Virus record (IMG/VR): IMGVR_UViG_3300013233_000593 | Coordinates: 1 to 42,838 of that record | Direction: 5' to 3' (one strand) | From: a virus | DNA length: 42,838 bases | Shown: in pieces, positions 7,134 through 42,838 of the stretch | Position numbering within the stretch: the stretch's first letter is position 1 | Layout: every line of letters begins with the position of its first letter | Translations under genes and position numbers: made by a program | Notes under the pieces: generated by a model | What the model was told of the DNA's origin: nothing | Seen by the model: the letters and a program-made list of their open reading frames with translations, nothing else | Database searches by the model: none

Positions 7134-8342
7134 ATGACCGACAAACTACAGGAACTCAGTTACGAAAATAAACGTGCCCTCTTAATGTCCGCCCTCGACC
7201 CGAACAACGATTATCGCGTCTGGATACGCGACATCTACAGCGACCACGCTGTTATCGAAGAGGGCGAAGGCAAACTCTTCGAGATCCCCTACACCATCAT
7301 GGACGGCGCCGTCACCCTGGGCGAGCGTAAAGCCGTTCGCGTTGCCTACGAAGCCTTTGCCGAATTGAAGGACGTAGAAGTCCTCCGCGCAGGCACCTTC
7401 ACCTCTATGTCCGGCGAGGCCGTCACGTACACCACCGCCGACCTGACCGAGATAGCGAAGAACGCCGGCGACATGGAAGAGATACTAAAGCCGCCCCTTG
7501 TCGCCACCCACGACGAAGGCGACGACGCCAGCATCACCGTTTTTGGCGCCGTCCACGGCGGGATATTCCACAACATCCGGCAGGACGGAGAAAAACTCAT
7601 GGCCGACATAAAAGGAATGCCGAAGAAGGCCGAAGAGCTTCTCGGCGAAGTCGAAGAGTTCCGCCTCTCCCCGGAAATCTATAAAAATTTTAGTCACGAG
7701 GGCAACTCCTATGGAAAAGCCCTCAGAAGGGTCGCATGGGTAGCAATCCCCGCGATCAAAACAATGGCAGGAGTCACCGGCGCCAACCTCTTTGAGGAAG
7801 AGCCCGACCAGCCATCCACATGGGTAAAGCTCCATGAGCGCAACCAGAGTCCAACAAAGGAGGAACACAAAATGCCAGAAGACGTAACCAAGTTTCAGGA
7901 GCAACTTGATAAACTCTCCGAAAAGATAGCAACCCTCACCGAGTCAAACGCCGCCCTCACCACCGAGCGCGACGCCCTCAAGTCCGACAACGAGGCGAAG
8001 GCGATCAAACTCTCCGACCTGGCCACCTCAGAAAAGGCCCTACGCATTGCTGGGATGATAAAGCCCTTCCGCGCCGCCGGGCTTGCCCCCGTCGTAGCCG
8101 ACAGGCTTGAAAAGCTTGCCGAAACCATCGATGCCTCGACAGTCGCCAAGTTCGGCGAGAAGGAACACACCCCGCTCGACGAGTTCGGCGAAATCCTCGA
8201 CTCCATGCTCAACCGCGAAAAGGAAGGCACCCTCGTCGTAGAGTTTGGCGAAAAGGCCCCCGGCAGCGAAGGCTTTGCCGAGAGTAAGGTCGAGCAAGAG
8301 ACCGTCGCCGCGATAGCCAGCGCCTCTCCGAAAAAGGAGTAA
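7134..8342 (+). CDS. Capsid maturation protease with C-terminal scaffold (Mu gpI-like)
   Basis: The N-terminal ~235 residues match the Mu gpI-type prohead protease, with ATHDEG, a GAVHGGIF strand and EEFRLSPEIY as family features. This serine protease would remove the scaffold during head maturation. The C-terminal ~155 residues are charged coiled coil, as expected of a scaffold. An in-frame ATG at 7872 with a near-perfect ribosome site would give the scaffold alone, as gpZ arises within Mu gpI. AGGAGG precedes the start. It lies between portal-MuF and the decoration protein. Confidence 0.85.
   Translation: MTDKLQELSYENKRALLMSALDPNNDYRVWIRDIYSDHAVIEEGEGKLFEIPYTIMDGAVTLGERKAVRVAYEAFAELKDVEVLRAGTFTSMSGEAVTYTTADLTEIAKNAGDMEEILKPPLVATHDEGDDASITVFGAVHGGIFHNIRQDGEKLMADIKGMPKKAEELLGEVEEFRLSPEIYKNFSHEGNSYGKALRRVAWVAIPAIKTMAGVTGANLFEEEPDQPSTWVKLHERNQSPTKEEHKMPEDVTKFQEQLDKLSEKIATLTESNAALTTERDALKSDNEAKAIKLSDLATSEKALRIAGMIKPFRAAGLAPVVADRLEKLAETIDASTVAKFGEKEHTPLDEFGEILDSMLNREKEGTLVVEFGEKAPGSEGFAESKVEQETVAAIASASPKKE
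7872..8342 (+). CDS. Nested scaffold protein from internal start (156 aa)
   Basis: The internal in-frame ATG is preceded by AAAGGAGG (7856-7863) with an 8-base gap, as good as any ribosome site in the window. The product starts MPEDVTKFQEQLDKLSEKIA and is mostly predicted coiled coil. It would assemble with the capsid protein to shape the prohead and then be degraded by the longer protease product. Nested scaffolds are established for Mu (I/Z) and lambda (C/Nu3); expression here is inferred from the ribosome site. Confidence 0.7.
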   Translation: MPEDVTKFQEQLDKLSEKIATLTESNAALTTERDALKSDNEAKAIKLSDLATSEKALRIAGMIKPFRAAGLAPVVADRLEKLAETIDASTVAKFGEKEHTPLDEFGEILDSMLNREKEGTLVVEFGEKAPGSEGFAESKVEQETVAAIASASPKKE

Positions 8343-8367
8343 CGGCCTTAAAGGAGTAACGGCTTTA
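8334..8367 (+). repeat. 17-bp tandem duplication after the protease gene
   Basis: AAGGAGTAACGGCCTTA (8334-8350) is followed immediately by a copy with one difference (8351-8367). The first copy includes the end of the protease gene and its TAA. The second contains a ribosome-site-like AAGGAG with no ORF behind it. Confidence 0.8.
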
Positions 8368-8404
8368 CCTGAACATTAAAAGTTAAATAAGGAGGGAAAA
8401 CATA

Positions 8405-10196: not shown

Positions 10197-10667
10197 ATGG
10201 CCTACTGCGCCCACACCGATATCCTCGCCCTGGAGATCATCCTTGAGGAGCTTATCGCCCTCACCGATGACGGCAAGACCGGCGCCCCCGACATCACCAT
10301 CGTCAACGCCAACATCGCTAGGGCCGATGCCGAGATAGACGGCTACATCAAGTCCCACTACAGCGTGCCGTTGACCCTCCCCGTGCCGGAAGAGATAAAA
10401 AACCTCTCCGCCACCATCACCGCCTATTGGCTCTTTCGGCGGAGAAACGAAGTCAACGAGTCAATCTTCGACGCCTACATAAAAGCCCTGGCAAAGCTAA
10501 AGGCAATCTCCCAGGGCAACTATGCCATCAACGGCATCACAAAAAAGACCGACCCGTCCGGCGTAGCATCAACCATAGCCTCAACCGTGACGCACGAATT
10601 CACCAGAACAAAAAAAGACAGTAGCGGCACCGTCATCGGCAATGAAGGAACAATGGAAAAATGGTAG
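10197..10667 (+). CDS. Mu gp36-like head completion protein (DUF1320)
   Basis: 156 aa with the family N-terminus (MAYCAHTDILALEIILEELI), an acidic IARADAEIDGYIKSHYSVPL helix and a helical core. It is expected at the head-tail connector. It sits three bases after the previous gene, followed by gpG- and gp37-type genes in the Mu order. Confidence 0.85.
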   Translation: MAYCAHTDILALEIILEELIALTDDGKTGAPDITIVNANIARADAEIDGYIKSHYSVPLTLPVPEEIKNLSATITAYWLFRRRNEVNESIFDAYIKALAKLKAISQGNYAINGITKKTDPSGVASTIASTVTHEFTRTKKDSSGTVIGNEGTMEKW

Positions 10668-10673
10668 ATAAGA

Positions 10674-10746
10674 GGCAGGGAACGGGGATCAGGGGTCTGG
10701 TGTCGGAAAGTCCAAATACCCGACCCCCGAAACCCGACCCCCAAAA
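10674..10746. repeat. Dispersed G/C-rich imperfect inverted repeat, copy 2
   Basis: A G-rich arm (GGGAACGGGGATCAGGGGTC) and C-rich arm (CCCGACCCCCGAAACCCGAC) flank a centre GGAAAGTCC, which appears in reverse-complement form (GGACTTTCC) in copy 3. It fills the gap between the gp36-like and gpG-like genes. Confidence 0.75.
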
Positions 10747-10753
10747 TTAACAG

Positions 10754-11317
10754 ATGATTGCCATCGACATAAACATAACCGGCCTCGACGCCGAACTTGC
10801 CCGCCTCGACAGGATAGGAATCGGCCTCACCAACCTCTCGCCCTTTTTCAAAGTCGCCGGGACAGAGATGATGAAGAGTTCACAAAAGAACTTCCTCTCC
10901 GGAGGCCGCCCCGCATGGCCGTCGCTCTCGCAGGTGACGCTACTTCTCCGGGCGCAGAAGAAAAAGAGCTTCCGCACCCATAAACGGGGAAAGAACAAGG
11001 GTCGGCTCACAAAGAAAACCTTCAACGTCTTGATCGCCGGAGCCAACCCGCTCAGAGACACCGGCCACCTCATGGCGTCGATAGGCAACCCGGCAAAGGG
11101 CGGCATCTTCCGCATCGAGGCCGACTCCATCACCATCGGCACGGCGGTCAAATACGCCGAAGCGCACCAGCAAGGCGTCGCAAAAACAAAAGGCTTTATC
11201 AAGGGCAAGAAGATACCGAAGAGAGAATTCCTGAAAGTCCAGCCCGAAGACGAGACAAACATCCTCCGCCATGCCAGAGAATTCGTGGACAGAGTAATTA
11301 GGAGGAACAAAAACTAA
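10754..11317 (+). CDS. Mu gpG-like virion morphogenesis / tail completion protein
   Basis: 187 aa matching the phage virion-morphogenesis family, which acts at head-tail joining. It has an ITGLDAELARLDRIG start, a basic middle (KKKSFRTHKRGKNKGRLTKK) and a conserved LRDTGHLMASI followed by IGTAVKYAEAHQQG. The stop overlaps the next gene's ATG by one base. Confidence 0.87.
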   Translation: MIAIDINITGLDAELARLDRIGIGLTNLSPFFKVAGTEMMKSSQKNFLSGGRPAWPSLSQVTLLLRAQKKKSFRTHKRGKNKGRLTKKTFNVLIAGANPLRDTGHLMASIGNPAKGGIFRIEADSITIGTAVKYAEAHQQGVAKTKGFIKGKKIPKREFLKVQPEDETNILRHAREFVDRVIRRNKN

Positions 11318-11796
11318 TGTCTCTCACAAACAGCTTCACCGCCATAATCGACAACATCGTCACCACCCTCGCCGGCGATGCGCCCCTGAACGACTTTTGC
11401 AAACAGGCATTCAGCAGGCGTCTCAAAGTGGTGAAGCAATTAACTCCGCGAGAGGACGTAACCATAGACAACTACCCCCTCATAATGATCACACGGCCCG
11501 AAGTGGATAACGACAATCATAGCGCCTCTGCCCGCGCCGACATAATCCACACCGTAAAACTCTACTGCGGATTCCGTGTAGGCGACAGCGTGGCCAGTAC
11601 AAAGCCGCACCTCGATGAGCTTATCCAGTTCGACGAGTACATCGACCAGGCCCTCCTTCAGTCCCCCCTCCGTGGCGGCCTCGGCCTGATGACAAAGATA
11701 GGCAAATCCGTCAACGACCAGGGCGCACAGCCGCCCGAATACTTTACGGAGAAACTGATTTACGTGACACAGAGGATACAACCAACGCAGAGATAA
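11317..11796 (+). CDS. Mu gp37-like protein (DUF1834), tail terminator candidate
   Basis: 159 aa. Position directly after gpG and the mixed alpha/beta pattern fit Mu gp37-type proteins, which function at the tail-head interface. GGAGGAAC precedes the start. Assignment rests partly on gene order. Confidence 0.75.
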   Translation: MSLTNSFTAIIDNIVTTLAGDAPLNDFCKQAFSRRLKVVKQLTPREDVTIDNYPLIMITRPEVDNDNHSASARADIIHTVKLYCGFRVGDSVASTKPHLDELIQFDEYIDQALLQSPLRGGLGLMTKIGKSVNDQGAQPPEYFTEKLIYVTQRIQPTQR

Positions 11797-11805
11797 AATG
11801 GCACA

Positions 11806-11820
11806 TTGACAATTGACAAC
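11806..11820. repeat. Short AATTGACAATT-family repeat
   Basis: TTGACAATTGACAA lies just after the gp37-like gene, before the ribosome site (ACAGGAGGT) of the tail tube gene. Confidence 0.5.
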
Positions 11821-11861
11821 AAATAAAACTCGAACCTAACAAAACACAGGAGGTAAAAAAC

Positions 11862-12602
11862 ATGCCATCACCAGCAGACCTGCTCCTCGGCGGAGCAAAG
11901 TTATTTTTCAACGACGGTAGCGGTTACCGCACTTTCGGCAACATCCCGGAGATATCCCTCTCCCGGGCCATCACCGAGCTGGAACATTTCACCCCGAAGA
12001 CCGGCAAGCGGCTCCTCGACAAGACCCTTATCACCGAGACAAAACTGGGGATCAACTTCAAGATCGACGAATTCGACGACCTCAACCTCAATGCCATCGT
12101 CTTCGGCAACGGTGTAACAGACGCATCGTATGCCTCCGGCTCCGTAGTTGACGAAGCCCACACAGCCAAACTGGATCGATTCCTCTTCATGGCCAAAGAT
12201 AAAATCTCAGCGGTCGTAGTCACCGACTCCACCGGCGCTACCACTTATGTCCTCGATACCGATTACACCATCGAAGACGCAGCGCTTGGGATAATCAAAA
12301 TTCTCTCCACCGGCTCCATCACCGCCGATGAAGCCCTGCTCATCGACTACAGCTACGCCGCAGGCACCCGCAACAGGATCGTCCCCGGCAAGACCTTCAC
12401 CGTCGAAGGATCTGCCCGCCTCGAATTCCTGACCGAGAGCGGCTCACCCCTCACATGGGTAATTCACAAGGCCGCCCTCAAAGCGGAAGGCGACACAACC
12501 CTCTCCAGCGAAATCTGGAGCGAGGCCGACATGAAACTCGACATCCTCTCCGACGACGCAAACAACCCGAACGAGCCCTACGGGTACCTGCTGGCAGGAT
12601 AG
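11862..12602 (+). CDS. Major tail tube protein
   Basis: 246 aa. It starts with the tube-protein pattern GGAKLFFNDGSGYRTFGNIP, followed by ELEHFTPKTGKRLLDKT. A beta insert (TTYVLDTDYTIED...GIIKILSTGSI...ALLIDYSY) resembles segments in the 189- and 671-aa tail proteins. There is no sheath gene beside it, so the tail should be non-contractile. The next gene is the assembly chaperone. Confidence 0.88.
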   Translation: MPSPADLLLGGAKLFFNDGSGYRTFGNIPEISLSRAITELEHFTPKTGKRLLDKTLITETKLGINFKIDEFDDLNLNAIVFGNGVTDASYASGSVVDEAHTAKLDRFLFMAKDKISAVVVTDSTGATTYVLDTDYTIEDAALGIIKILSTGSITADEALLIDYSYAAGTRNRIVPGKTFTVEGSARLEFLTESGSPLTWVIHKAALKAEGDTTLSSEIWSEADMKLDILSDDANNPNEPYGYLLAG

Positions 12603-12615
12603 GAGAAAGGCAGCA

Positions 12616-13119
12616 ATGGAACATTATTTTTCTGAGACAACCATACGAATAGCCCCGGAGTCTGGAGAGGAGATCACCCTCATCATGCGGCCCCTCAAGG
12701 TCAAGGAACTTCCCGACCTCCTTCGCCTTGAGGCCCGCGCGGCCAGCGGTGACGGAGAGGCCACTATTGCAGGCTTTGCCGACTTTATCGACCTCGTAGA
12801 CGGCACGGTAGATGGCGACATCAAGGCCCTCCCCACCGAAGCCCTCGACGGCATCATCAAAGCCTTCGACGGTCTCAACTTTCCAGCGGGAGCAAAAAAG
12901 GGCAAGGCCAGCAAAAAGCCCTTTGATGAAAAAGAGTTTGCCCGGTCAATAGAGTTCCTCATCTCCCAGGGCCACGCATTCAGCGAGATCGAAGAGTACA
13001 CCCTCCCCCGGTTCCGCCTTTTTGTGGACCTGGCCATAGAGCGATTGACCGCAAAGCCAAAGAAAAAGGTTGACCCCATGGAGGCCCTGGCCGGGCTTGG
13101 GATACCAATGAGGCAGTGA
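12616..13119 (+). CDS. Tail assembly chaperone (gpG/gpGT-type)
   Basis: 167 aa, between tube and tape measure as in other siphophages. The N-terminal ~95 residues are a helical G-like domain; the C-terminal ~70 (ARSIEFLISQGHAFSEIEEY onward) resemble the T part. Both are in one frame here, joined by a Lys-rich linker (AKKGKASKKPF) containing a canonical slippery heptamer. A slip there would shorten the protein rather than extend it. Confidence 0.8.
   Translation: MEHYFSETTIRIAPESGEEITLIMRPLKVKELPDLLRLEARAASGDGEATIAGFADFIDLVDGTVDGDIKALPTEALDGIIKAFDGLNFPAGAKKGKASKKPFDEKEFARSIEFLISQGHAFSEIEEYTLPRFRLFVDLAIERLTAKPKKKVDPMEALAGLGIPMRQ
12894..12900 (+). other. A AAA AAG slippery heptamer in the chaperone gene
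   Basis: The heptamer is in the right phase (gcA AAA AAG) for a -1 slip. A slip gives nine further codons (GQGQQKAL then stop at 12924-12926), so the full-length reading would be the long form and the slipped product the short one, as in bacterial dnaX. No pseudoknot was established. Confidence 0.3.
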
Positions 13120-26275: not shown

Positions 26276-27322
26276 TTATTTCTTTTTAGAATCAAGCGGT
26301 TGTGGGTCATTTAGTTTACCGATGTAGTGATCGAATTTCTGTCCCTCGGTTTTTAAATAGTCGCCCAGCAGGTGTGTGTAGATCTCGGTGGTCTTGCTTG
26401 AGCTGTGTCCCATGATGCCCTGCAGGGCTCTCAGGTTCATACCGGAGGCGAGGCCGTGGGTTCCGAAGCTGTGCCGCAGGAGGTGGTGGTTTATTTTCTG
26501 TTTTACTCCCGCCCGTGTTGCGGCGCGGAGCAGGGCCTTTCTGATGCTTCGCCACGGCCTACCGGTTTTTGGATTGATGTAGAGGTAGCCATCCTGTCGT
26601 TTCTGTAACGCCCGCGCCAGTTCGTCCCTTAGTCGCCCTGTCATTATCGGCACAAGCCGCTCTTTGCCGCCTTTGCCCCTAACGAGGATCATGCCGGTGT
26701 CGATAAAAACATTCTGCGCCTTCAGGTGGGTTGCCTCGGTCAGGCGGAGTCCGCCATCGTAAAGGAGCAGGAAGATGGGCAGGTAAATCGGCTCGATGTT
26801 GTCTATTAACTTTTTGATCATTGACGGATGAGGTATGACCGGTTGCGGTGCTTTAATTCGGGGGAATTTCTTTATTCTGAATGACAGGGGGTGGGCATAG
26901 TTGTTCTCGGCGGCCCACTTGCACAGGCCGGAGAAGTACGAGAGTTCCTTGTTGATGGTTCGCTTCGACACGCCGGTCTCCAGCCGGGCTGATTTGTATT
27001 GCTCGATGAGGGTGGGCGTAAGCATCGAAAACTTTGTGTGTCCGAAGAACGGGGTGAGGTGCTTGAGGCAACAGACGACGTCGATGTAGGTTGTCGGCCG
27101 GTGGTTGTTCTGATAGTCTTTTTTCCAGTCAGGGATAGCGTCGATGATCTTTGGACTGACTGGAATATCTATCGATGACCCGCGCCGAAGGCTGGTCTCG
27201 TAGGCGATGGCATCGGCCTGGTTGCCGTGGAAGTACTGCATGACTCTCTTTCCCTTGCGGCCCTGGGGATAGTAGTCAATCTGCCACTTTTTGCCTGCTT
27301 TGTCTTTTGGACGGACGGCCAT
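26276..27322 (-). CDS. int: Tyrosine integrase
   Basis: 348 aa. An N-terminal arm-binding region (KWQIDYYPQGRKGKRVMQYF), a core-binding SAM-like domain (~60-150) and a catalytic domain with Arg in LLYDGGLRLTEATHL, Lys in VRGKGGKERLVPI, HHLLRHSFGTH (HxxR) and GHSSSKTTEIYTHL with the Tyr nucleophile. It would catalyse integration at and excision from the tRNA-Arg gene. The stop is next to attP. The promoter is probably that of the repressor, far upstream in the same strand. Confidence 0.93.
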   Translation of the reverse strand: MAVRPKDKAGKKWQIDYYPQGRKGKRVMQYFHGNQADAIAYETSLRRGSSIDIPVSPKIIDAIPDWKKDYQNNHRPTTYIDVVCCLKHLTPFFGHTKFSMLTPTLIEQYKSARLETGVSKRTINKELSYFSGLCKWAAENNYAHPLSFRIKKFPRIKAPQPVIPHPSMIKKLIDNIEPIYLPIFLLLYDGGLRLTEATHLKAQNVFIDTGMILVRGKGGKERLVPIMTGRLRDELARALQKRQDGYLYINPKTGRPWRSIRKALLRAATRAGVKQKINHHLLRHSFGTHGLASGMNLRALQGIMGHSSSKTTEIYTHLLGDYLKTEGQKFDHYIGKLNDPQPLDSKKK

Positions 27323-29668: not shown

Positions 29669-29698
29669 AAATACCCGGAGCTGACACCTCCTCAACAT

Positions 29699-29749
29699 CC
29701 CCGGCTAGCTCGACGGAGCGAAGAGGCGTTTCCCGCCGCCCTGCCGGGG
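29699..29749. other. Intergenic hairpin before the 77-aa gene
   Basis: CCCCGGC (29699-29705) and GCCGGGG (29743-29749) enclose a 37-base segment containing shorter self-complementary parts. No T run, so not a plain terminator. It fills the only gap above 100 bases in this part of the early region. Confidence 0.35.
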
Positions 29750-29780
29750 TCCCACAGCGGAATTTTTGGGAGGTAATGTG

Positions 29781-37457: not shown

Positions 37458-37672
37458 ATGGTTCCCCTAAACTATAACTATACTTCTAAGTATATGATAA
37501 TAATAAGGAAATTTAGGGGAACCATTAGGGGAACCATAGGGGAACCATAGGGGAACCTAGGGGAACCATAGGGGAACCATTTTTATTGTCTCAAATGGTT
37601 CCCCTAAACTTAACTATTCAATATATAAGGTGAATTAGGTGTTTAGGGGAAGCAGGGAAGTAGGGGAACCAT
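37458..37672. repeat. 11-bp iteron array, candidate replication origin
   Basis: AGGGGAACCAT occurs in direct tandem at 37515, 37527, 37538, 37549 (AGGGGAACCT), 37559 and 37570, at close to 11-base spacing, and again at 37662. Inverted copies (ATGGTTCCCCT) lie at 37458-37468 and 37595-37605, and AGGGGAAGCAG is at 37645. An AT-rich stretch (37470-37512) lies beside the array. The phasing puts every copy on one face of the helix. An initiator or the adjacent recombinase could bind here. Confidence 0.88.
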
Positions 37673-37677
37673 TATTT

Positions 37678-38700
37678 ATGCTCTCAAAAACTGAAAACCT
37701 ACTAAAAGGCTTTGAAAAGTGGCTTCTCGGATGCGAAAAATCACCCTTCACTGTGAGGTCTTACCTCGAAAAAGTGGTACCTTTTTGCCAATGGCTGGAT
37801 GCCAGGGCGGTCGATATCCTCGAAGTGGACCCGCAAGAGGCCGGGTATTTTTTCCAGTATCTGTTGCTGAAGAAAAAACATGCGGCCAACACCCGGAACC
37901 TGGCTTACACGGCGATCCGCCAATTCTATAACTATCTGGTTGCCCAGCAATTGATGGCGGCCAACCCACTGGACGATGTGACAGCGCCGAAGAAAGAGTA
38001 TCGGAAGATGGGTGCGTTGACGAACGATGAAGTGCAACTATTGATACACGCGCCTGGCATGGACACGGAGCGCGGCCTCAGAGATACCGCCATGATTGCG
38101 CTGTTGACGGCTGTTGGATCAAGGGTGTCTGCGTTGACCCGACTGAGGCTTGGTGACATAAGGGCCGAAGAGGTCACACTTCCGCCCCGGTGTGGATACT
38201 GCAATCAGGTCGATTACTCCGGAGCGTCAAGGATGAGGCCGAAAAAAAAGACCATGGCGATTTTGACTTTGCGTGAGAAGGGGAACAAACAGTGGGACAT
38301 CCCGCTGAATGACAAGGGCGCGTTCTACCTCAATCAATACCTGGTACAGCGGGAGTTTGGCAGTGATAGCGATATCGTCTTCCCGGCGTTGAAGCGGCGC
38401 CCTGTCCGGCCTATCTCCAGAGCCGGGATATTGAGCGTTATCAAGCGGTATGCTCGGGAGGCAAAGATCAAGGGCTCCGTGTCACCCCACAGCTTCCGCC
38501 GTGCTGCGATAACCTGGCTCCTCGATTGTGGTGTGGATGAGATGGTGGTTAAGAATTACTTCGGTCACGCTGCCCTCTCCACAACAGAGAGGTACCGCAA
38601 CGTGACGCATCGTTCTTTCATGTTCGCCGGTGTCGCAGCAGAAAAGAATCTACTGGAAGCTATTGAAACTCCTATGGATAAGATCATAGAGAAAGGTTGA
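37678..38700 (+). CDS. Tyrosine recombinase, Xer-like
   Basis: 340 aa from ATG 37678; the GTG at 37639 is in frame but would run through an iteron. Core-binding domain (~5-100) then catalytic domain with Arg in TAVGSRVSALTRLRL, Lys in TLREKGNKQWDIP, HSFRRAA (HxxR) and FGHAALSTTERYRN with the nucleophile Tyr. An insert with CGYCNQVDYSGASRMRPKKK between strands is unusual. It is a second tyrosine recombinase besides the integrase and may resolve multimers or act at the iterons. Confidence 0.88.
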   Translation: MLSKTENLLKGFEKWLLGCEKSPFTVRSYLEKVVPFCQWLDARAVDILEVDPQEAGYFFQYLLLKKKHAANTRNLAYTAIRQFYNYLVAQQLMAANPLDDVTAPKKEYRKMGALTNDEVQLLIHAPGMDTERGLRDTAMIALLTAVGSRVSALTRLRLGDIRAEEVTLPPRCGYCNQVDYSGASRMRPKKKTMAILTLREKGNKQWDIPLNDKGAFYLNQYLVQREFGSDSDIVFPALKRRPVRPISRAGILSVIKRYAREAKIKGSVSPHSFRRAAITWLLDCGVDEMVVKNYFGHAALSTTERYRNVTHRSFMFAGVAAEKNLLEAIETPMDKIIEKG

Positions 38701-39082: not shown

Positions 39083-39367
39083 ATGGCAGACTTTAAGCCC
39101 TCAGACGGGTCTCATGGGTTCCTGGCCGAGGTCGAGCAGCTCCTCAATGATGCCCTCGGCTCTCCGCACGGCACACTGGAGTTCAAGGGCATCCTTGACC
39201 GGCACGGCGGCGGCGACATCTACATCCCGACATCGACCGAGGTTTATAATTTATGGCGACAAAAGCAGATAAGGGCCCGTTTCACCGGCAGCAACTATCA
39301 GGAGTTGGCCGACGAGACCGGCCTCTCTGCTCGACACATCAGGAGGATAATTCATGACGACAAATAG
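39083..39367 (+). CDS. Mor-family transcription activator
   Basis: 94 aa from ATG 39083, preceded by GGGGGGAATGG (an upstream GTG at 39056 is less likely). The family pattern is clear: GGGDIYIPTSTEV, a basic RQKQIRARFTGSN and an HTH YQELADETGLSARHIRRIIH. Mu Mor and C activate middle and late promoters by binding DNA as dimers. Here the gene overlaps csf1 by 14 bases, so it is the first gene of the csf operon and may also turn on the late genes. Confidence 0.82.
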   Translation: MADFKPSDGSHGFLAEVEQLLNDALGSPHGTLEFKGILDRHGGGDIYIPTSTEVYNLWRQKQIRARFTGSNYQELADETGLSARHIRRIIHDDK

Positions 39368-40082
39368 AAGCAGCACAGCAAAAAAGACGAGAATGGACAT
39401 GCTCCCAACCCATATGATAGGGCAACACTTATCCGCCGCCCTCCCGGAACTAACCTCTTTTGACGAACATTGTGCTATCTGTGGATTAGGGGGAGGTGAA
39501 GGCTTACCTTTGGATCAGGTTATCACTTCTACCTTTGCCGACATAGATTGGCTTCTGGACGGTGGCCGCCACATCTGTATCTATTGTCTGCGTTGTCTCG
39601 GCCAGGGTCAGCCTCGGAACGAATGGATAAAAAACGTGAGTTGTATTGCAACTCCGGAGAAACTTCTCCGCCTCAAAAGAGACGATCTCTGGCTGCACCT
39701 GCTCGCTCCCCCCACAATCCCCTTTATATTCAACATCACCTTTAGTCACAAAAAGCACATGAGTTTTAAGGGCCGCGTCAACTGTGGAGGACGCCGTTAT
39801 TACGTCACAACCGACATAGACACAGCTGAGATAGACCTATCCCGCATGGCGTCGGCCATAGAGGCAATGCGGTCATGGTATTCCGTCTGTAAAGATACCG
39901 CAGTCAAACCCACATGGTTCACAAAGAACGACATATTGAGAGGTGTTACAAACTATAAAAAAATTGAAAATTATGGGACAGAGCAATTTTTAAAAGAGGA
40001 TGCCGTGTTGTCCAAGTGGCGCGGCAATCATGCCCTCGAAATACTAACCTACGCACTCAACAAAAAGGAGGCAGTAAAATGA
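39354..40082 (+). CDS. csf1: Type IV CRISPR-associated Csf1 (large-subunit-like zinc protein)
   Basis: 242 aa. Zinc finger CAIC (Cys 40, 43) and CIYCLRC (Cys 75, 78), separated by GLPLDQVITSTFADIDWLLD, is the Csf1 arrangement. The remainder is beta then helical. In type IV complexes Csf1 is the Cas8-like large subunit at the foot of the backbone. AGGAGG (39341) lies 7 bases before the ATG, within the Mor-like gene. Its TGA overlaps the csf2 ATG. Assignment rests on zinc pattern plus neighbours. Confidence 0.8.
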   Translation: MTTNRSSTAKKTRMDMLPTHMIGQHLSAALPELTSFDEHCAICGLGGGEGLPLDQVITSTFADIDWLLDGGRHICIYCLRCLGQGQPRNEWIKNVSCIATPEKLLRLKRDDLWLHLLAPPTIPFIFNITFSHKKHMSFKGRVNCGGRRYYVTTDIDTAEIDLSRMASAIEAMRSWYSVCKDTAVKPTWFTKNDILRGVTNYKKIENYGTEQFLKEDAVLSKWRGNHALEILTYALNKKEAVK

Positions 40083-41320
40083 TCAAATTCAACTACATAT
40101 TCAAAGCCGTTGGACCGCTCCACACAGGCAGCGATATCAGTGAAGGTATATTCAAATCCCTTCGGCGCCAGAAGCACGTCCTGCCCGAATCACTATCCTA
40201 CAGCTCCGTCCTTACCGACGAAGCTCGCCGAGACGCAGTAGTCAACCTCTGCATGGGTGTCTGGAACTCCATAGACTTCGATGCCATGAGAAAAAGCCGC
40301 CTCCTCAGAGTGTGGGACGAATTTGCCGCAAAGCTTACCGCCGCCGGGCGATGCAGAGACAAATACAAATTTCTCGACCGCCTTTGCCGTTCCTGGGGAA
40401 TCAGATCGTGCACACATGACCTCGTAAACCAAGCACTAGATGCTCTCACCGACACAGAACTGCTCGACATAGTACGCAACGAGACCATCTATATCGTCCT
40501 TAAAATGCGGGTGATAAAAGACGACATGCAACAGCAGTGGGAAAATAACAAAGTCAGGAGTAAAGACTACAAATATCCTGCGATCAAAAAGCTTGAATCG
40601 CCCATAGTCGTCAGCCGGTACGATGAAGAGCTGCCTTGCATCTCAGGCAACAGCATTCGCGGGAAAATGCGGCGCATAGCCATGTACGACTACTGTCGCC
40701 GCGCCGGGCTGACCTCCCTCTCCAAACGTGTTTACCACACATTCTTTAGTGGCGGCTTTCTCGATTCCTCATCCACCTACGAAGATTTTGGCCGGCTGGA
40801 CGACGTATGCAGCCACCACCCCATGCTTGCCGTCTTCGGTTGTGCCTTTGGCGACATGATGATCGAGGGCGATATGAAAATAGGCTGGGCCTACCCCCTC
40901 TGTAGCGAGCGTGAGACCGCAGGCGAATCTATCTGGGAGAAGCTGGATACCGTATTCCAGACCCGTAAAGACAGCTCTAAAAGCGAGGACATCATAGACA
41001 TAGAAACCGTAATTGACGGTGAAATACAAGACGCCCCCCCCCAGCAAATGAAATACGAATATGAAGTCTTTGCACCTGGCACAATCTTCGAGCATCGCAT
41101 AGCCCTCTGTACCGAAGACACCCTCCACATAAGCGCCTTCTGGCACATGATTACCTTATTTACAGAGCAGCCGTACATCGGCGGCATGGGCGCCGTTGGC
41201 AACGGAGAGATAGACATCGACGGCATCACAATCCCCGAGAATGCCAATGCAGAGTACCTCAATTATATCGAAGGCAAAAAAAACCAGATAAAGGAGTTTT
41301 GGGCCAATGTCAAAGTCTAA
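40079..41320 (+). CDS. csf2: Type IV CRISPR-associated Csf2 (Cas7-like backbone)
   Basis: 413 aa from the ATG at 40079 (AAAGGAGG upstream; ATGA overlap with csf1). RAMP/Cas7 features: first strand NYIFKAVGPLHTGSD, PCISGNSIRGKMRRIAMYDY (about 186-205) and the glycine-rich YIGGMGAVGNGEI near the C-terminus. It would coat the guide RNA. Residues ~44-165 form an extra, apparently helical region not part of the usual Csf2, in an operon without a separate cas11. Overlaps csf3 by 14 bases. Confidence 0.88.
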   Translation: MIKFNYIFKAVGPLHTGSDISEGIFKSLRRQKHVLPESLSYSSVLTDEARRDAVVNLCMGVWNSIDFDAMRKSRLLRVWDEFAAKLTAAGRCRDKYKFLDRLCRSWGIRSCTHDLVNQALDALTDTELLDIVRNETIYIVLKMRVIKDDMQQQWENNKVRSKDYKYPAIKKLESPIVVSRYDEELPCISGNSIRGKMRRIAMYDYCRRAGLTSLSKRVYHTFFSGGFLDSSSTYEDFGRLDDVCSHHPMLAVFGCAFGDMMIEGDMKIGWAYPLCSERETAGESIWEKLDTVFQTRKDSSKSEDIIDIETVIDGEIQDAPPQQMKYEYEVFAPGTIFEHRIALCTEDTLHISAFWHMITLFTEQPYIGGMGAVGNGEIDIDGITIPENANAEYLNYIEGKKNQIKEFWANVKV

Positions 41321-41999
41321 ACACCTCCACTTCAGTCCCCAATCGCAGGCATGGCGGCTCACCGTAACCTTCTACTCGCCGTGCATCTACTACACTCCCG
41401 TCATGCTCGACGGCCTGGTAGCCTACGGCCTTAACCGTCGCGCCACCGCCGCCGAGGGGCGGCCCTCCTACACCGGTCCAGGCTGGAAACGCACCGGCAT
41501 CTTCGACGACCTGAAAAGATACCTCTTTCAGGATTCCAACTGCTCCGTTTGCACCCAGATGATTCCCGACATAGACATCCCCATAATCGAGAGCATCAAA
41601 AAACGGTTTGATCTCCGCCACTATAAACTAATAGACTTCGGCAAACACCGGCCCCGGATAAACAGCTCCGCGGCTCCATACCGTAACTATAACAAGCGCA
41701 TGCCAGGTCGCCTTGTCCGGCAGGGACATTGGGACTTTATCGGCGACGGCCCGGCCATAGCAGCACTCATATCGAGCGAGATCGTCGGCATAGGCAAAGA
41801 CATCAACGCCGGATACGGCTGGATCGCCCGCGCAAACCTCTTGGCCGTCACAGCGACACGCGAAGAAATCCTTGCCCAACGTCCCATCCCCCTCCATCTT
41901 GCCGAGCGATACGGCATAGAAGGCCGTCATGAGATACGGGCGTGGAAACCCCCCTATTGGCGCCGTGGCAACCAGACCGAGTGCGTGGTCCCCGAATGA
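41307..41999 (+). CDS. csf3: Type IV CRISPR-associated Csf3 (Cas5-like)
   Basis: 230 aa, a RAMP protein: first strand RLTVTFYSPCIYYTPVMLDG, a long middle region with RPRINSSAAPYRNYNKRMPG, and the glycine-rich IVGIGKDINAGYGWI near residue 165. In type IV complexes it caps the 5' end of the guide RNA. AAGGAG lies 12 bases before the ATG inside csf2. The stop overlaps the cysH-like ATG (ATGA). Confidence 0.82.
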   Translation: MSKSKHLHFSPQSQAWRLTVTFYSPCIYYTPVMLDGLVAYGLNRRATAAEGRPSYTGPGWKRTGIFDDLKRYLFQDSNCSVCTQMIPDIDIPIIESIKKRFDLRHYKLIDFGKHRPRINSSAAPYRNYNKRMPGRLVRQGHWDFIGDGPAIAALISSEIVGIGKDINAGYGWIARANLLAVTATREEILAQRPIPLHLAERYGIEGRHEIRAWKPPYWRRGNQTECVVPE

Positions 42000-42760
42000 A
42001 ATACGAAAAAAACATAGAACTCCTCCGCGCCGGAGAACTATGGAAAAACACCCGGATGTTCAAGGCCAAACGCGAAAAAGCCATAACAGTCTGCATAAAA
42101 GCCTTCGAGACAAACATCCCAGCCTACCTTGCCATTAGTGGAGGGAAAGACTCAGTGGCCATGTCGGGAATAGTAGACGAAGCCGCCCGCCGTTGCGGGC
42201 AAGACTTTGTTCTTTGGGGCCACCTCAGCGACGCCAGCTTCCCAGGTACAGAAGAGACCATCCTTGAAACCGCAAACAGACTTGGCCGCGACGTTGTAAT
42301 AGACCGCTCTCCCGTCTCCGCCTTCGACGTAGTTGGCCAGCAGAGCCGCGCCGCCTTTGGAAAAAAAGGGTACTTTTTCGACGCCATAAAAGCCTGGGTA
42401 GAAAAGAGTAACCGCCGTCTCACCTTCGTCGGCGTCCGGGCCGACGAAAGCAAGCGTCGCCGCAACGCCTGCCGCGCCCAGGGGCAGATATTCCAGAGCA
42501 ACACCCCTTGCCACCACACAAAGTGCTTCCCCGTCGCATGGTTTACGCTGAACGACGTAGCAGCCGCCCTGTCACAGTACAATCTCCCCGTCCATCCCAT
42601 CTACAACAAGCTCCCCATAGACCAGAAAACCATCAGGCTGGGATATGTGACAGCATTGGACCTCATGCACCAAGGAACAATAGTATTCCTGCGCCTGAAC
42701 TATCCTGCTCTCTATAACAAACTCCTCCAGGCATTCCCCGAGGCGTCTCAATATGCATAG
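41996..42760 (+). CDS. cysH: CysH-like PP-loop protein of the type IV-B locus
   Basis: 254 aa from the ATG at 41996, overlapping the csf3 stop; an upstream in-frame ATG at 41942 would overlap csf3 further. The PP-loop SGGKDS (residues 48-53) binds ATP. ...TKCFPVAWFTLNDVAAALSQ is the conserved C-terminal part of PAPS reductase-type proteins, with several Cys (CRAQGQ, CHHTKC). Its constant association with csf1-3 and the lack of dinG or cas6 mark subtype IV-B. Its reaction in these loci is not known. The next ORF overlaps its TAG by 8 bases. Confidence 0.88.
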   Translation: MKYEKNIELLRAGELWKNTRMFKAKREKAITVCIKAFETNIPAYLAISGGKDSVAMSGIVDEAARRCGQDFVLWGHLSDASFPGTEETILETANRLGRDVVIDRSPVSAFDVVGQQSRAAFGKKGYFFDAIKAWVEKSNRRLTFVGVRADESKRRRNACRAQGQIFQSNTPCHHTKCFPVAWFTLNDVAAALSQYNLPVHPIYNKLPIDQKTIRLGYVTALDLMHQGTIVFLRLNYPALYNKLLQAFPEASQYA

Positions 42761-42838
42761 AGACCTCACCCCCTTTCAACGCGGCATCGATTTTATCTGT
42801 CATTATCGCGGTAACAACCTTTACCCTCGCCGACATTG
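42630..42838. repeat. Right copy of the 209-bp terminal direct repeat
   Basis: Exact duplicate of the window's first 209 bases; includes the 3' end of the cysH-like gene. Confidence 0.97.
42753..42838 (+). CDS. 5' part of the frameshifted HTH ORF (partial; continues at 124)
   Basis: ATG overlapping the cysH TAG, then MHRDLTPFQRGIDFICHYRG to the end of the window. On the circle it continues into the left end, where the frame breaks near base 190; that base is also present in this copy. Confidence 0.5.
   Translation, partial: MHRDLTPFQRGIDFICHYRGNNLYPRRH

Follow-up and report, generated by a model that had tools for sequence, protein, structure and literature searches.

A predicted Cas11 domain inside the Csf2 protein of a phage-borne type IV-B CRISPR-Cas operon

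Type IV-B is a CRISPR subtype for which we know of no function. Cryo-electron microscopy of a IV-B complex showed a filament of Csf2 built along a short RNA and lined with Cas11 (PMC7937560), and in the solved structure (7JHY) there is no density for Csf1 and Csf3. IV-B has already been published from viruses, namely the 'Fuxiviridae' of Bathyarchaeia (PMC10848311). Here we describe a IV-B operon in the IMG/VR phage record IMGVR_UViG_3300013233_000593, analysed over its whole length of 42,838 nucleotides (the window), in which Cas11 is very probably encoded as a domain nested in Csf2. No description of a Csf2-Cas11 fusion was found in the literature searched, which lacks two central papers on type IV diversity, and the fusion is probably novel.

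The original prediction for this locus had regarded IV-B as known mainly from plasmids, a view that is dated in the light of the published viral systems and the 38 viral loci with an unfused Csf2 that a single IMG/VR scan returned. It had also listed csf1, csf2, csf3 and cysH, and all four are indeed there; what it overlooked is Cas11, normally a separate gene in IV-B, inside the 413-amino-acid Csf2.

Cas11 within Csf2

The csf2 (Cas7) gene occupies 40079..41320 on the plus strand, starting with an ATG at 40079, and its product matches both the PADLOC profile Csf2_0_IV (2.3e-46) and Cas11_1_IV (1.5e-12). The type IV Cas11 profiles of PADLOC match inside the csf2 open reading frame (ORF), after the first strand and before the ISGNSIRG motif, and the domain so delimited covers residues of about 47-170 of 413 (40217..40588, plus strand). 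In an AlphaFold2 model of the fused protein (predicted local distance difference test, pLDDT, 82), six helices at 47-155 form a bundle between strands 30-45 and 171-186. The same PADLOC profiles match all of the eight inserts compared (the window and seven relatives). More specifically, a hidden Markov model (HMM) built solely from 40 stand-alone cas11 genes of unfused loci matches residues 50-162 of the window Csf2 with an E-value of 1.6e-17, and every fused Csf2 tested with values from 3e-19 to 1e-8 (6e-13 and 3e-10 for the relatives L107 and L110). No stand-alone cas11 was found with this HMM in the fused loci, where the best ORF other than Csf2 reached an E-value of 2.1.

When the insert is left out, the profile of the fused Csf2 matches plasmid Csf2 over the full length (E 8e-61), and the insertion site is therefore a hairpin turn, which reads 'QPDGSVE' in a typical unfused Csf2 and corresponds to the beta-turn between LRRQK and ISGNSIRG. 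The whole Csf2 model matches type IV Csf2 and Csm3 chains in a structure search, and the insert modelled alone has a sole confident Foldseek match in the PDB, the IV-B Cas11 chain 7jhy_g (probability 1.00, template modelling score 0.61). As judged from these profiles and from the predicted fold, Cas11 has very probably been inserted into Csf2 of the window phage.

Short helical domains can match by chance, so the insert might be an unrelated helical domain and the fusion a false one; when the profile of the insert was compared with a profile of four plasmid Cas11 proteins alone, the probability indeed reached only 68%. This reading is contradicted by the PADLOC matches in eight of eight inserts, by the separate-gene HMM and by the fold match to 7jhy_g, as well as by the complete mutual exclusion of the insert and a stand-alone cas11 gene, and we consider it extremely improbable. 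A chance match was rejected on the same profile, HMM and fold results. An assembly artefact as the origin of the insert was likewise rejected, since the insert is found at the identical position in 13 other loci.

Relatives were sought by protein scans of IMG/VR and GTDB contigs. A fused Csf2-Cas11 was found elsewhere on 12 distinct viral contigs and on one contig of a bacterial metagenome-assembled genome, counting L006 and its near-identical copy L007 once. Every fused viral contig has both csf1 and csf3; the bacterial contig begins inside csf2. The gene set is kept despite a shuffled order, which may be csf1-csf2-csf3-cysH, csf1-csf2-cysH-csf3, csf1-csf3-cysH-csf2, csf2-cysH-x-csf3-csf1 or others. 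An unfused Csf2 occurs in 42 loci (38 viral contigs from one IMG/VR scan with plasmid Csf2, and four plasmid loci), and a cas11 ORF lies beside csf2 in 41 of them, the remaining locus starting at a contig edge. The number of residues in the insert columns ranges from 135 to 175 in the 14 fused proteins against 6 to 12 in the 42 unfused ones, with no intermediates.

In an unrooted tree calculated without the insert, a single branch separates fused from unfused Csf2 with a support of 99.2/100, and because this split is fully supported, the sequences point to a likely single insertion event at the origin of the fused clade. None of the relatives has nucleotide similarity to the window, and the conservation among these divergent viruses is therefore one of protein sequence; a search for Csf2 in GenBank phages gave no match. 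The fused proteins thus appear, on sequence grounds, as a distinct virus-borne clade of IV-B, usually linked to csf1, csf3 and cysH.

The operon and its phage

Along the plus strand, csf2 is flanked by csf1, encoding a Cas8-like large subunit of 242 amino acids (39354..40082; PADLOC Csf1_0_IV 1.9e-23, TIGR03114 2.6e-12), and by csf3, encoding a Cas5-like protein of 230 amino acids (41307..41999; PADLOC Csf3_0_IV 9.9e-29, TIGR03116 6.8e-11). The cysH-like PP-loop gene follows (41996..42760, plus strand, 254 amino acids), with a PF01507 (PAPS_reduct) match of 1.1e-8 that is over the cut-off, and extends into the terminal repeat of the genome. Csf1 carries zinc-finger cysteines in the pattern C-x2-C ... 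C-x2-C-x2-C, which by eye are also present in Csf1 of the relatives L003 and L004. The NCBIfam scores for csf1, csf2 (1.2e-8) and csf3 all lie under the curated equivalog cut-offs, and the Csf proteins are therefore divergent. None of the operon proteins has a Cas10 or HD match in Pfam.

Sequences resembling ribosome-binding sites precede csf1, csf2 and csf3. A gene for a Mor-family late transcription activator of 94 amino acids (39083..39367, plus strand; PF08765 1.9e-11, phrog_836/532 late transcriptional activator 4e-11) lies at the head of the series, with an overlap of 14 bases into csf1, and its product is probably an operon regulator or a phage late activator. The further overlaps are 4 (csf1/csf2), 14 (csf2/csf3) and 4 bases (csf3/cysH), as the coordinates confirm for the predicted one-strand csf1-csf2-csf3-cysH operon with overlaps of 4-14 bases. 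The proposed interval of 39083-42760 can be kept as a cas operon for 39354-42760, its first 285 bases (39083-39367) being the Mor-family gene. Profile searches also bore out the identities given to Csf1, Csf2 and Csf3, the PP-loop nature of the CysH-like protein and, through the matches of csf1-3 and cysH together, the assignment to subtype IV-B.

No CRISPR-like array was found when the whole genome was scanned, and profile searches of the phage record found neither Cas6 nor the DinG C-terminal domain (PF13307), in agreement with what had been predicted. A hidden or mini-array in the window was considered and rejected: the short repeats belong to an iteron-like cluster at 37492-37618 and to tandem repeats. 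This cluster, between a primase-like gene and the second of two integrase genes, consists of short, partly inverted AGGGGAACCAT repeats and may be a replication origin.

The genome is complete, because a direct terminal repeat of 209 bases (42630..42838, no strand assigned) is 100% identical to positions 1-209; the record is classed as complete/circularly permuted, with a unit of 42,629 bp. Its head and tail genes include a Mu-type portal fused to Mu F, a major capsid protein E and a tape measure protein, and further genes encode an endolysin, DNA primase pieces, a C5 methyltransferase and a repressor-like helix-turn-helix (HTH) protein. With the portal, capsid, tape measure, endolysin, integrases and repressor-like protein on a terminally repeated genome, the description as a complete temperate phage stands. 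The nearest capsid matches are below 48% identity and belong to phages whose hosts are very different bacteria.

Two different tyrosine integrases are encoded in this one phage, at 26276-27322 and at 37639-38700; the latter (plus strand; PF00589 1.9e-26, phrog_1) lies directly upstream of the Mor-csf operon, as context outside the effector. At 29698-29761 there is a match to the int-alpA RNA (RF02996) with a score above the gathering threshold. Downstream of cysH, at 124-430, an HTH-like protein is apparently encoded in two frames (MHRDLTPFQRGIDFICHYRGNN in one and FTLADIASRYGLSYKQATRLRDQLE in the other), and this split ORF may be a frameshifted gene, an assembly error or a programmed shift.

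Guides, CysH and possible modes of action

The term 'array-less', as used in the original prediction, is correct for the window and cannot be extended to the whole fused clade. In L003, a CRISPR array of 11 repeats of 32 bases (GTTTCAATCCACGCCCCCGCGCGGGGGGCGAC), which we presume to be I-C-like, lies at 10416-11106, 0.95 kb downstream of cysH. The L004 contig (L058:3348-3570) has a mini-array of four repeats (GTCCAAGAYGAACTATAGTGTGATGGTAAC), the last copy degenerate, with spacers of 36-38 bases; no other occurrence of this repeat was found in IMG/VR. On the 153.5 kb viral contig of L009, a Cas6 gene (7683-8375; PF01881 1e-17) overlaps csf1 by 4 bases, and no CRISPR array was found in the portions of this contig examined.

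The CysH proteins of 11 operons have an invariant SGGKDS motif and invariant R148/E151/R155, and the C-terminal cysteine motif of the reductases (ECGxH) is absent from their alignment, as reported earlier for IV-B CysH (PMC8175902). No PAPS_reduct gene occurs anywhere in the L011 and L110 records, in which homologous genes (L011:10299-10958 and L110:7256-7963; 38% identical) take the place of cysH between csf2 and csf3. This replacement family has no match in Pfam, NCBIfam or PHROG, no meaningful match in the PDB and no further members in the scan of viral contigs. It carries the motif ILDSGA[FY]GL, which may resemble TGT/DpdA-type enzymes. Two neighbouring arrangements were also seen: in the fused operon of L010, DUF3440 PP-loop and ParB_N genes (an IbrA/IbrB-like pair; 10999-12836) lie between cysH and csf3, and on the Halomontanus plasmid L017 a DUF3440 gene and then a ParB-family gene come shortly after csf3.

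Taken together, the window operon probably encodes a virus-borne IV-B effector that has Cas11 in Csf2 and assembles on RNA, a grading that does not extend to its biological role. By analogy with the solved complex, each Csf2 would carry its own Cas11, giving two filaments at a fixed 1:1 stoichiometry and removing the need for separate docking of Cas11. Because the operon is coupled, possibly translationally, to a Mor-type activator, expression in the lytic phase is suggested. More tentatively, the window phage, having neither array nor cas6, may load short host-made RNAs (host CRISPR RNAs, crRNAs, if present), and in some relatives guides may be provided by a phage-borne array or with the help of Cas6. 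Equally tentatively, CysH, as an ATP-binding PP-loop enzyme, or its substitute may act at, or in the vicinity of, the nucleic acid that the complex binds or targets, and the benefit for the phage might be the control of rival elements or a blunting of RNA-guided host defence. The role put forward in the original prediction, small-RNA binding and a part in competition between mobile elements, is likewise a tentative proposal.

Several points weigh against this interpretation: (i) the Foldseek E-value of the insert against 7jhy_g is 0.03, the insert being a short helical domain; (ii) the 1:1 ratio would not hold if some of the inserts remained undocked or if internal initiation also yielded free Cas11; (iii) array and Cas6 searches gave no guide source in the window genome; (iv) the L003 array, being terminal on its contig, may belong to flanking host DNA rather than to the phage; and (v) no target was found in GenBank phages for 8 of the 11 L003 spacers and the three mini-array spacers, and all spacers of both arrays are without a match in the loci collected here.

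As to what such a complex would do, the readings overlap. The arrays of L003 (11 repeats) and of the L004 contig (four repeats), the Cas6 of L009 and the mini-array that Fuxivirus IV-B likewise possesses (PMC10848311) speak for a guide-directed silencing of rival mobile elements in the manner of IV-A, with CysH replacing DinG and crRNAs supplied by the host or by small phage-borne arrays. Most fused viral records, the window included, are however without an array near the operon, no spacer target was found in GenBank phages or the collected loci, and the operon has no nuclease or helicase; we hold this reading only as a tentative possibility. The complex could instead be a sponge for guide RNAs, coating any short host RNA, crRNAs included, and so disarming host defence while recognising no target. 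This would suit the window, which lacks both array and cas6, and is in keeping with the Mycobacterium IV-B complex, which formed on heterogeneous RNA of 55-60 nucleotides and not on the co-expressed crRNA (PMC7937560). It leaves CysH and the gene replacing it unexplained, and the Cas6 and arrays of some relatives suggest specific guides there; we hold a sponge to be slightly less probable than guide-directed silencing.

A third reading is a ribonucleoprotein that brings a swappable modifying enzyme (CysH or the L011/L110 family) to the bound RNA or its target. The retained SxGKDS PP-loop and R-x2-E-x3-R residues of CysH, the replacement of cysH by one homologous family in both L011 and L110, and the additional DUF3440 PP-loop and ParB_N genes of L010 are consistent with it. 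The replacement family is without a Pfam, NCBIfam, PHROG or PDB match and its chemistry is thus unassigned, and CysH itself has no known substrate; such a machine is unlikely on present evidence. A more elaborate form, in which a crRNA-guided Cas7-Cas11 filament of the fused viral clade delivers an exchangeable modifying enzyme, so that the outcome would be RNA-guided modification and not cleavage, is decidedly improbable; its crRNAs would be of host or phage-borne origin and its targets rival or host nucleic acid.

Under the preferred reading, a IV-B effector with Cas11 in Csf2, stoichiometry would be fixed and the complex would shrink to three cas proteins and CysH, which would simplify reconstitution, RNA sequencing and structural work. 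The natural exceptions in the fused clade (an operon Cas6, two arrays and the CysH replacement) would permit comparisons bearing on the origin of guides and the role of CysH.

Comparison with known systems

By its core genes, Cas11, cysH and the lack of an array, the window system is classified within type IV-B. It has csf1, csf2 and csf3 in one operon together with a cysH-like gene, it encodes Cas11 (as a domain inside Csf2), and it has no array and no Cas6, the usual state of the subtype; a stand-alone cas11 beside csf2, usual and not absolute in IV-B, is missing. The DinG helicase of IV-A is not encoded, PF13307 being absent from the record.

Plasmid IV-B systems, as in Mycobacterium sp. 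JS623 (7JHY) and on the Thermococcus nautili plasmid L016, likewise have csf1, Cas11, csf2 and csf3 and lack an array, cas6 and dinG. L016 also shares cysH, and its order csf1-cas11-csf2-csf3-cysH is that of the window apart from the fusion. They differ in that Cas11 is a separate gene and in a Csf2 core that is about 32% identical to that of the window. The IV-B of the Fuxiviridae is virus-borne and accompanied by cysH, as is the window system, and differs by a mini-array, an archaeal host and a Cas11 that is apparently its own gene, having been aligned as a separate protein (PMC10848311).

By sequence profile, the closest solved Csf2 core is Cas7c (PDB 11fs; depositors' name, here taken as IV-C). 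In IV-C a Cas10-like HD large subunit replaces csf1, whereas the window has Csf1 and cysH. The Cas7-11 effectors of III-E and III-I resemble the window in uniting Cas7 and Cas11 in one polypeptide, and differ in that several Cas7 domains are fused in tandem within a single effector (PMC12669027). In the window, by contrast, each chain has one Cas7 core and one insert, a single Cas11 that sits within a turn of the repeating Cas7 subunit, and the predicted complex is multi-subunit, with separate csf1 and csf3.

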